A stretch of DNA of 23,719 nt from a virus. How positions within the stretch are numbered: the stretch's first letter is position 1; every line of letters begins with the position of its first letter. The stretch spans positions 1 through 23,719 of IMG/VR virus record IMGVR_UViG_3300024348_000254, one strand, 5' to 3'. Positions 314-2,722 of the stretch are shown here, one piece after another. The translations under genes and the position numbers were made by a program. Under the pieces are notes generated by a model that was given only the letters and a program-made list of their open reading frames with translations, was not told the DNA's origin and ran no database searches.

Positions 314-471
314 ACAGAAAAGAAATCATGGAAAAGCTTTTATCAGACATGGAATCAACAATCTATTTAATGAAACAACAATACGCTAGTGATGGTAAAG
401 TAGCACTGCAAGGTAAGCTTGATTACATTGAATCAATTCTAGAATGGATTACTCAAGGGGGTAAAGTATGA
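310..471 (+). CDS. Small hypothetical helical protein
   Basis: This 53-residue ORF (MNRKEIMEKLLSDMESTIYL...) starts at an ATG inside the ATGA junction with the upstream gene, preceded by GGAGAG at 296-301. It ends in another ATGA junction at 468-471. The predicted protein is largely amphipathic helix and may form a short coiled coil or dimer. No function is recognised. The ribosome site and the exact overlaps on both sides support a real gene. Confidence 0.6.
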   Translation: MNRKEIMEKLLSDMESTIYLMKQQYASDGKVALQGKLDYIESILEWITQGGKV

Positions 472-659
472 GATGCATTTGCTGTGATAAAAACCTAAGT
501 GACTTTGAATCCACACGAAAGTCAATACATACTAACGAGTACATTGACATGTGCCAAAAATGTTACAGCACAATCGTTAGAGATGTACCAACACTTGAAC
601 GTGAGGACTTACTAACTAATGATGAGAAAGAAGATACAGAAGAGTACAAAGAACTCTAG
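468..659 (+). CDS. Small zinc-finger-like protein
   Basis: The 63-residue protein has two closely spaced cysteine pairs: C3/C5/C6 near the N-terminus and C-x2-C in MCQKC around residues 29-32. Four such cysteines could bind one zinc ion in a ribbon or knuckle. The C-terminal 20 residues are strongly acidic. A strong AAGGGGG ribosome site (455-461) precedes the ATG. Small phage proteins of this type can bind DNA or host proteins, but no specific family is recognised and function is not assigned. Confidence 0.65.
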   Translation: MRCICCDKNLSDFESTRKSIHTNEYIDMCQKCYSTIVRDVPTLEREDLLTNDEKEDTEEYKEL

Positions 660-687
660 ACAACACTGTAATTTTGTGATACACTAT

Positions 688-747
688 TACTATATAGTAC
701 TATGTAAGTTAAAAACATACTATATAAGTAAGAACATACTATATAAG
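688..747 (+). repeat. Spaced TACTATATA-type repeats in an AT-rich leader
   Basis: The 95-base gap between genes holds four copies of a TACTAT(A/G)TA(A/G) element, starting at 688, 698, 718 and 737. The spacings are 10, 20 and 19 bases, close to whole helical turns. The first copy lies in a perfect 12-base palindrome, TACTATATAGTA (688-699). The last two are part of an exact 15-base direct repeat, AACATACTATATAAG (714-728 and 733-747). This could be a set of protein-binding sites, a replication origin element or a tandem promoter region; the sequence does not decide. Confidence 0.65.
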
Positions 748-754
748 GACTTAT

Positions 755-922
755 ATGTTACACTTTGATGATACTTTAGAAGCTGAACAATACGAATATC
801 ATTTTGCTATCAGTGATATTGTCGATAAGATTGATCTCTATGGCTATGATGCTGTGATGGAAGACATTAAAGACTACTATCACAAAAGACAATTCGATAG
901 AATGTATGAATCAGAATTTTAA
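755..922 (+). CDS. Small acidic hypothetical protein
   Basis: This 55-residue ORF begins MLHFDDTLEAEQYEY and is acidic and rich in tyrosine. An AAGGA ribosome site (745-749) lies 5 bases before the ATG and is partly formed by the end of the last leader repeat. It is the first gene after the repeat region, so it would be first on any transcript starting there. Its end overlaps the next gene by 17 bases. No family is recognised. Confidence 0.55.
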   Translation: MLHFDDTLEAEQYEYHFAISDIVDKIDLYGYDAVMEDIKDYYHKRQFDRMYESEF

Positions 923-1082
923 TAACGAGATTGTTGTCGATATTGATAACTGGTTAAACTTTTTAGATACTTTACACGATAGCTTTCCTGAAATCTATAA
1001 CGATCCTGATAGTGCAATGATAGGATTCGAATCAGACTGGGAAGAATACAAAAGAATCTTGTCTAACATTAAGGAAAGATAA
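906..1082 (+). CDS. Small acidic hypothetical protein
   Basis: This 58-residue acidic ORF (MNQNFNNEIVVDIDNWLNFL...) begins inside the end of the preceding gene and its TAA overlaps the primase-helicase ATG (TAATG). No good ribosome site is visible before its ATG, so it may be translated by coupling to the upstream gene. The protein looks helical with conserved-looking tryptophans. Function is unknown. The tight fit between two genes is the main support. Confidence 0.5.
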   Translation: MNQNFNNEIVVDIDNWLNFLDTLHDSFPEIYNDPDSAMIGFESDWEEYKRILSNIKER

Positions 1083-2722
1083 TGTACGAAGTTAAGCAGT
1101 CCTCCACTGTCGTTAAAGCACACAGACCATGTAAAGATTGTGGTTCAAGTGATGCGTTAAGTATATACAGTGACGGACATACGTATTGTTTTAGCTGTCA
1201 GACCAACACAAAGGCTGTCAGAGAGGCGATCGATGATACAGTAATACCTACCTATAGGGATAAATTTAAATTGAATACAGAGCGTTTTAAGGGCATTCCT
1301 GACGATGCTGAAGTAATACCGTTTACTAAACGTGGCATTGTGCAGAAGACTTCAGAAGTATTTGGGGTCAGAGTGGATGATAACAAGATCTACTTTCCGT
1401 ACTATGACATCAACGGTACTCTTGTAGCTACCAAGATGCGAGGAAAGAAAGAGAAGACATTCAGCAGTGACGGTGCATGGGCAGAAGCTACGTTGTTTGG
1501 ACAGAACCTGTTCACCAAGGGTGGCAAAGCTATCACGATCACTGAGGGTGAGTTCGATGCGATGGCTTGCTATCAGATGACCGGCTCACGTTACCCTGTC
1601 GTGTCTATCCGTAACGGTGCAGGTAATGCATTGAAGGATTGTCGTGCCCAATACGAGTACCTAGATTCATTCGAGAAGATTGTTATCTGCTTTGATGCTG
1701 ATGAGCAGGGTGTTAAGGCAAGTAAAGAAGTAGCAGAGTTGTTTGGTAGTAAAGCACACGTGTTCATGCACACAGGTACTACGCATAAGGATGCATGTGA
1801 TTACTCATTTAACAACGATACTAAGTTGTTCATTGAGAAGTGGTGGAACGCTGACAAGTACGTACCTGATGGGATCGTAGCAGGTTCAACACTATGGGAT
1901 ATCGTATCAGCACCTGTAGAGAAAGCTGATGTGTTGTATCCATACAACGGTCTTAATGATTTAACATACGGAATCCGTAAGGGTGAGCTAGTTACTGTGA
2001 CAGCAGGTTCAGGACTAGGTAAGTCACAATTCTTACGTGAGATTGTATGGCACATCTTGAATAACTCAGAAGATAACATCGGCTTGATGTTCTTGGAAGA
2101 GTCAGTTAAGAAGACAGCACAATCATTGATGAGCTTGGCAGTTAATAAACCTTTACATTTACCGGACAATAATGCGACAGACGATGAACGAAGATACGCT
2201 TTTGATAAGACTCTTGGCACTGATAGGCTATTCCTGTTTGATCATTTCGGGAGCACTTCTATCGATAACATTCTTAATCGGGTACGGTTTATGGCTCGTG
2301 GGTTGGATTGTCAGTATGTTTTCGTAGACCACGTGAGTATCATTGTATCTGCACAAGAGTCCGGTGATGAGCGTAAAGCAATTGACGAGATCATGACCAA
2401 GCTTCGCATGCTAGTACAGGAAACAGGTATCAGTTTGTTTGTTGTATCACACTTGAAACGCCCTAATGATAAGGGTCACGAGGAAGGAGCAGCCACGACA
2501 CTGGCACAGCTACGTGGTTCAGGTTCAATTGCACAGCTAAGTGACGTAGTTATTGGATTGGAACGCAACGGTCAACACCCTGAGATACTCGAGAGAAACA
2601 CTACTCACGTTAGGGTTTTAAAGAATCGTTTCAGTGGACTGACTGGTAAAGCTTGTCGATTGTTCTACAGTAGGATGACTGGTCGCATGGATGAGATGCC
2701 ACCGGAGGAGCAAACACTGTGA
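1082..2722 (+). CDS. Bifunctional DNA primase-helicase (T7 gp4-like)
   Basis: The 546-residue protein unwinds duplex DNA at the fork and makes RNA primers, like T7 gp4 (566 residues). An N-terminal zinc-binding module has C17, C20, C36 and C39. A TOPRIM primase core follows, with the acidic EGE motif at 155-157 and the D-x-D pair D205/D207. A RecA/DnaB-type helicase domain follows, with Walker A GSGLGKS at 309-315, an acidic LEE motif near 338-340, a Walker B-like segment (YVFVDH) and a later VVSHLKRP motif. The full set of motifs indicates an intact enzyme. The ribosome site AAGGA lies at 1071-1075. A GTG-started gene overlaps its stop. It should act with the polymerase and SSB encoded downstream. 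Confidence 0.96.
   Translation: MYEVKQSSTVVKAHRPCKDCGSSDALSIYSDGHTYCFSCQTNTKAVREAIDDTVIPTYRDKFKLNTERFKGIPDDAEVIPFTKRGIVQKTSEVFGVRVDDNKIYFPYYDINGTLVATKMRGKKEKTFSSDGAWAEATLFGQNLFTKGGKAITITEGEFDAMACYQMTGSRYPVVSIRNGAGNALKDCRAQYEYLDSFEKIVICFDADEQGVKASKEVAELFGSKAHVFMHTGTTHKDACDYSFNNDTKLFIEKWWNADKYVPDGIVAGSTLWDIVSAPVEKADVLYPYNGLNDLTYGIRKGELVTVTAGSGLGKSQFLREIVWHILNNSEDNIGLMFLEESVKKTAQSLMSLAVNKPLHLPDNNATDDERRYAFDKTLGTDRLFLFDHFGSTSIDNILNRVRFMARGLDCQYVFVDHVSIIVSAQESGDERKAIDEIMTKLRMLVQETGISLFVVSHLKRPNDKGHEEGAATTLAQLRGSGSIAQLSDVVIGLERNGQHPEILERNTTHVRVLKNRFSGLTGKACRLFYSRMTGRMDEMPPEEQTL

Follow-up and report, generated by a model that had tools for sequence, protein, structure and literature searches.

Near-palindromic boxes behind a predicted sigma-70 promoter at the replication operon of an aquatic phage, recurring at the terminase operon: putative sites of one dimeric regulator

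An A+T-rich leader in an uncultured virus carries repeated TACTATATA pieces just upstream of a primase/helicase operon, which raises the question of whether they belong to a replication origin, to a set of promoters or to the operators of a regulator. Judged from its sequence, the stretch is a bacterial-type sigma-70 extended -10 promoter followed by a leader that runs to the ATG at 755, and the replication and terminase gene sets of this phage group probably answer to one putative regulator. The window, that is, the whole stretch of DNA that we analysed, is a virus record of 23,719 bases.

The repeated leader and its promoter

As the first-pass annotation had described, TACTATRTAR occurs in four exact + strand copies starting at 688, 698, 718 and 737, with a palindromic copy also read on the - strand at 690-699. 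With one mismatch allowed, the number of matches over the whole window was ordinary (11 found vs 12.9 expected), and the exceptional feature is therefore the clustering of the copies, which lay far beyond chance: in none of 300 dinucleotide shuffles of the window did two exact copies fall within the same 60-nt stretch, and 5000 shuffles of positions 660-754 produced two exact copies at most. The region was likewise confirmed to be very AT-rich (77% A+T across 660-754, where the window maximum for a 95-nt stretch is 78%). The first copy does form a perfect 12-bp palindrome, TACTATATAGTA, but we rejected its length as evidence, since palindromes as long appeared in 11% of shuffles of this A+T-rich 30-nt stretch and the median palindrome-length p over 34 leaders was 0.33; the weight of the palindrome thus comes from its conservation. 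The window holds a single perfect box, and box 1 (ACTATATAGT) and the clade variant (ACTATATAAG) differ.

The repeat unit proved longer than first noticed. The segments 710-728 and 729-747 are identical at 18 of their 19 bases. The last three copies thus form units joined head to tail, about 20, 19 and 18 nt long, and none of 500 local shuffles yielded a 19-nt repeat with one mismatch or fewer. The repeats at 698-754 probably go back to duplication of leader sequence in tandem, and part of them may be no more than spacer; the likeness of copies 3 and 4, whose tandem unit includes the ribosome-binding site, may be owed in part to that duplication. The spacings in the window are 10, 20 and 19, as noted earlier, but in an alignment of close relatives the gap between copies 1 and 2 is 10, 11 or 12 while the gaps of 20 and 19 are fixed, and this variable first gap counts against strict helical phasing. 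The leader also contains ATGTAA at 703-708, a start codon followed directly by a stop; close relatives retain either this or ATGTAG, and L009 has neither.

Table 1. Features of the replication-operon leader and adjacent genes in the window
Feature	Position	Strand	Remark
-35 hexamer TAGACA	657..662	+	TAG doubles as stop codon of upstream small gene
Extended -10: TG 677-678, TACACT 680-685	677..685	+	17-nt spacer; kept in close relatives
Predicted transcription start	692..692	+	inferred from usual sigma-70 spacing
Perfect palindrome TACTATATAGTA	688..699	.	over predicted start
Box 1 core ACTATATAGT, fits ACTANNTAGT	689-698	.	over predicted start
Box 2 ACTATGTAAG, imperfect	699..708	+	perfect form ACTATGTAGT in L010
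Box 3 ACTATATAAG, clade variant	719..728	+	also in relatives' terminase leader
Box 4 ACTATATAAG	738..747	+	overlaps ribosome-binding site
Three head-to-tail units (698-717, 718-736, 737-754)	698..754	+	
Shine-Dalgarno AAGGA for gene at 755	745..749	+	within last repeat unit; direct reading
Upstream 63-aa four-cysteine protein	468..659	+	relatives in 13/13 records (tblastn)
Leader's first gene (ATG 755), 55-aa protein	755..922	+	predicted two-helix hairpin
Second small gene, 58 aa	906..1082	+	without confident family
DNA primase/helicase	1082..2722	+	same operon

The promoter, TAGACA-17-TACACT at 657-685, matches sigma-70 at 9/12 positions plus the TG and fits hexamers separated by a spacer of 16-18 nt. 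Over the whole window, sigma-70-like sites occur at chance number (49 found vs 50.8 expected). The promoter is kept in L001, L006, L007 and L010 despite differing flanking sequence, and most records of the wider family have TTGACA or TAGACA, 17 nt, TGn and TATACT at the same leader position. We found no single-subunit RNA polymerase (PF00940) in 14 records of the phage group, some of them fragments, with T7 as a positive control (E 1e-109), and each of the larger records that we examined had strong sigma-70 promoters, several with 12/12 matches, at several sites; the predicted promoter is thus likely to be read by the host polymerase. The reading of the repeats as tandem phage-type or T7 promoters was accordingly dropped in favour of the one sigma-70 extended -10 promoter upstream of them. 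Downstream on the + strand of the window, PHROGs named the primase/helicase, a RusA-like resolvase, an exonuclease subunit and a ribonucleotide reductase, and the gene after the primase/helicase we take, by its position, to be SSB. Elsewhere in the family, two strong sigma-70 promoters face each other 63-65 bp apart in all five contigs scanned whole (L083:1817-1880, L085:9701-9764, L087:5301-5364, L089:5823-5888 and L092:12030-12095), and such overlapping convergent promoters invite interference control.

The box at the replication and terminase operons

Among 28 distinct replication leaders of relatives, 24 carried ACTANNTAGT just downstream of the same promoter, with the box centre 7.5-9.5 nt or 18.5-22.5 nt after the -10; the exact box was absent from L006, L012, L036 and L060. 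A scan of 80 related loci, the window and fetched contigs, some contigs being present twice, returned 150 strand-rows, equal to 75 sites because the box is its own reverse complement, and 100 of these rows (50 sites) lay at most 80 nt downstream of a replication-leader promoter. For 43 of the 77 loci with a known primase start, the box was found within 1300 nt upstream. The 34 loci without it include 15 from a more distant group (62-64% primase identity), where the box was absent in 15/15, and several with short upstream sequence. Counted over whole genomes, ACTANNTAGT is about as frequent as expected in several records, and it is the placement of the box that carries the case.

Absence from the same leader in close relatives, the refuting condition set in the first-pass annotation, gave a mixed picture: the repeat copies persist in L001, L004, L006, L007 and L010; they are degenerate in L009 (85% primase identity) and replaced in L011 (75%), and neither of these two has a leader box. 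In sister lineages the boxes are paired, 10-13 bp apart, in replication and terminase leaders alike. The replication leader of L044 (3712-3781) has ACTAAGTAGT followed by six CTTAAGTAGT, giving seven units at exactly 10 bp, the only such array among 14 records scanned. A third box location was seen in the lineage of L011 and L088, where two boxes and a near-box with 13-bp spacing precede the first early gene (L011:204-226 and L088:18575-18597).

The box was found a second time in front of the divergent terminase operon, in a leader that lies about 3-4 kb from that of the replication operon. Two collection scans gave 59 distinct late-type leaders, of which 45 were followed by an AT-hook (terminase small subunit-like) reading frame. 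In these phages such a frame is typical of the gene that precedes the large terminase, the latter named by PHROGs. All 45 leaders passing this filter carried the box, 40 as ACTANNTAGT and 5 as ACTATATAAG. The former was present in 40/40 distinct leaders from outside the window clade, 68-103 nt after the promoter -10, and the latter in 5/5 leaders of the window clade, at 59.5-61.5 nt; the window ends short of its own terminase leader, and the terminase box is shown for its relatives only. The 14 late-type leaders without the AT-hook frame were set aside, with the box in two (L236 and L245) and absent in 12. In each of three window-clade records, ACTATATAAG has exactly three sites, all in sense orientation, with two in the replication leader, one in that of the terminase operon and none anywhere else. 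The gene before the large terminase (L082:17614-18042), present in 12/13 records, is the first of the boxed late operon, and its N-terminal RGRPP and GRP motifs we take to be AT-hook-like.

We then compared the box with palindromes of the same composition and with other promoters. Across the 12 half-site permutations of the letters A, A, C and T, ACTA alone exceeded 2 counts (32 and 59), and the 11 control palindromes had at most 2 matches in either leader set. Among 56 strong sigma-70 promoters of 12 records, the box lay within 155 nt of 9/11 replication and 12/12 terminase promoters and of 0/33 others, counts that are not independent because the same records supply both promoter sets and their sequences are related. 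The same site thus marks the promoters of the two operons (21/23) and not the others (0/33), the pattern of an operator array at co-regulated promoters. From one lineage to another the box varies in its centre letters, in copy number and in spacing but keeps its arms, an indication that the arms are under selection. A general comparison of the two leaders within one record, in which the G008 replication leader was not found by pattern, gave strong similarity in some records only. What was observed directly is that the boxes exist, where they lie, that they are conserved at the two operons and that the other strong promoters lack them.

What the boxes may do

We consider it somewhat better than an even bet that the host sigma-70 promoter and the replication-operon leader carry near-palindromic boxes as putative sites of one dimeric regulator, with the terminase operon under the same factor. 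The sites would be ACTANNTAGT and, in the window clade, also ACTATATAAG, and the regulator could be phage-coded or of host origin. We infer protein binding, a single protein, action on the DNA and repression, the last being a simpler guess than activation; that the box is symmetric and lies over the start speaks for binding to DNA. As the first box covers the predicted transcription start, binding there would block or re-time initiation by the host RNA polymerase. Through the boxes of the terminase leader the same factor would also control the packaging genes, as a road-block, which the distance of these boxes from the -10, 68-103 nt, would suit, or as a switch between replication and packaging. 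The earlier idea of a regulator operator array survives in part: relatives keep the core at the replication promoter and have it again at the terminase operon, but no regulator was found, and copies 3 and 4 lie in a tandem unit running into the ribosome-binding site.

That the boxes act instead as RNA in the 5' leaders, through an RNA-binding regulator, antitermination or pairing between the replication and terminase leaders, appears doubtful to us. All terminase-leader boxes and window boxes 2-4 lie within the transcript, ACTATATAAG is sense-oriented in both leaders, and replication leaders mostly have ACTAAGTAGT where terminase leaders have ACTACTTAGT, its exact reverse complement, so that 15/24 leader pairs from the same contig are fully complementary. 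However, box 1 straddles the predicted start and half of it would be untranscribed, and the two boxes do not covary: in L045 and L052 the replication box centre has changed to TA while the terminase box stays CT, and in L044 a terminase AG stands opposite AG. Pairing of the leader RNAs was rejected on this ground. RNA structure was rejected as an explanation as well, because the window leader folded no better than shuffles (z -0.55 and -0.74), with other replication leaders behaving likewise, and there was no Rfam match over 500-1100. Of five terminase leader RNAs folded, those of G007 (L089 from 10845, - strand) and G004 (L082 from 17439, + strand) had z of -3.3 and -2.8 against shuffles, and the other three ranged from -0.2 to -0.9. 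A translational role, in which the repeats are tandem Shine-Dalgarno-like or standby ribosome sites arising from local duplication, seems rather unlikely, even though the last repeat unit contains the ribosome-binding site, the leaders of L021, L025, L047, L048 and L060 have two or three tandem ACTTAGGAG-like Shine-Dalgarno copies directly before the first start codon, and a 12-nt tandem match (p <=0.05) occurs in 14/34 distinct leaders. The units at 698-717 and 718-736 have AAGT instead of AAGG, box 1 lies before or at the RNA start, and the boxes of the terminase leaders, which have no AGG, stand well ahead of the start codon.

Iterons of a replication origin, suggested in the first-pass annotation by A+T-rich direct repeats just upstream of a primase/helicase operon, gained no support and strike us as very improbable. 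Repeat number and spacing vary between lineages, where conserved iterons would keep them, the box also marks the terminase leader, and in 4/5 records the minimum of the cumulative GC skew falls between the divergent gene blocks, about 2.6-3.7 kb upstream, and in the fifth record it is about 3.1 kb distant, a weak line of evidence as gene direction drives the skew. We give equally little credence to a chance low-complexity, A+T-rich promoter leader with no bound factor. The length of the palindrome alone is indeed not unusual for its composition, but the control palindromes already disfavour chance, composition-matched palindromes being nearly absent where ACTANNTAGT is found in 24/28 and 40/40 leaders, and none of the 33 other strong promoters has the box.

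Candidate regulators and comparison with known systems

If the boxes are operators of one dimeric regulator, its gene is not obvious from domain searches, as a Pfam scan of 30 proteins gave no DNA-binding domain above cut-off. The product of the leader's first gene is modelled as a two-helix hairpin (pLDDT 87), which is not a known DNA-binding fold, and for the four-cysteine protein the model was poor (pLDDT 63). We disbelieved two weak matches below the cut-off, one to SelB_WH2 by a gene in 1/13 records and one to RbpA (E 0.054). The four-cysteine protein, coded directly upstream, is one candidate; a host-coded regulator is also possible. Ogr/Delta proteins are zinc-finger activators of P2-like phages, and Ogr sites lie upstream of promoters. 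The conserved adjacent upstream gene resembles them in coding for a small four-cysteine protein, but differs in that Ogr/Delta was not among the Pfam families matched by 23 four-cysteine members at E up to 5. We tentatively suggest, with low confidence, a two-operon regulon in a widespread aquatic phage family without its own polymerase, in which a regulator of no recognised DNA-binding class times the host polymerase between replication and packaging.

How gene expression is ordered in T7-like phages that lack a polymerase is poorly known, and a site conserved at just two operons offers a concrete handle on the regulator. With the box, promoters that are probably co-regulated can also be picked out in uncultured aquatic phages by sequence alone. 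A limited search of a partial literature collection found no description of the box.

The promoters resemble those of phages without their own polymerase that use sigma-70 extended -10 promoters, in the TTGACA-like hexamer, the 17-nt spacer, the TGn before the -10, the strong promoter copies at several operons and the lack of a detected single-subunit polymerase, and differ from them in the short boxes that follow the promoter at two operons only. Roseobacter phage SIO1 is stated to be without its own RNA polymerase (PMC6775973). The arrangement of the boxes recalls the operators and stoperators of Cluster A mycobacteriophages, where sites of one short type occur both at an early promoter and downstream of further starts. 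A protein bound at a stoperator could stop elongating polymerase, and the Cluster A sites are reported to be asymmetric, numerous and bound by the immunity repressor of a temperate phage (PMC9283540). Here, in contrast, the site is near-palindromic and confined to two leaders, and we found no repressor. A further likeness is to the early-late switch of phi29, whose phage-coded early proteins p4 and p6 order expression through the host RNA polymerase where early and late promoters are clustered (PMC3100819). The phi29 sites surround adjacent promoters, whereas here the operons lie about 3-4 kb apart with the boxes at or downstream of the start.
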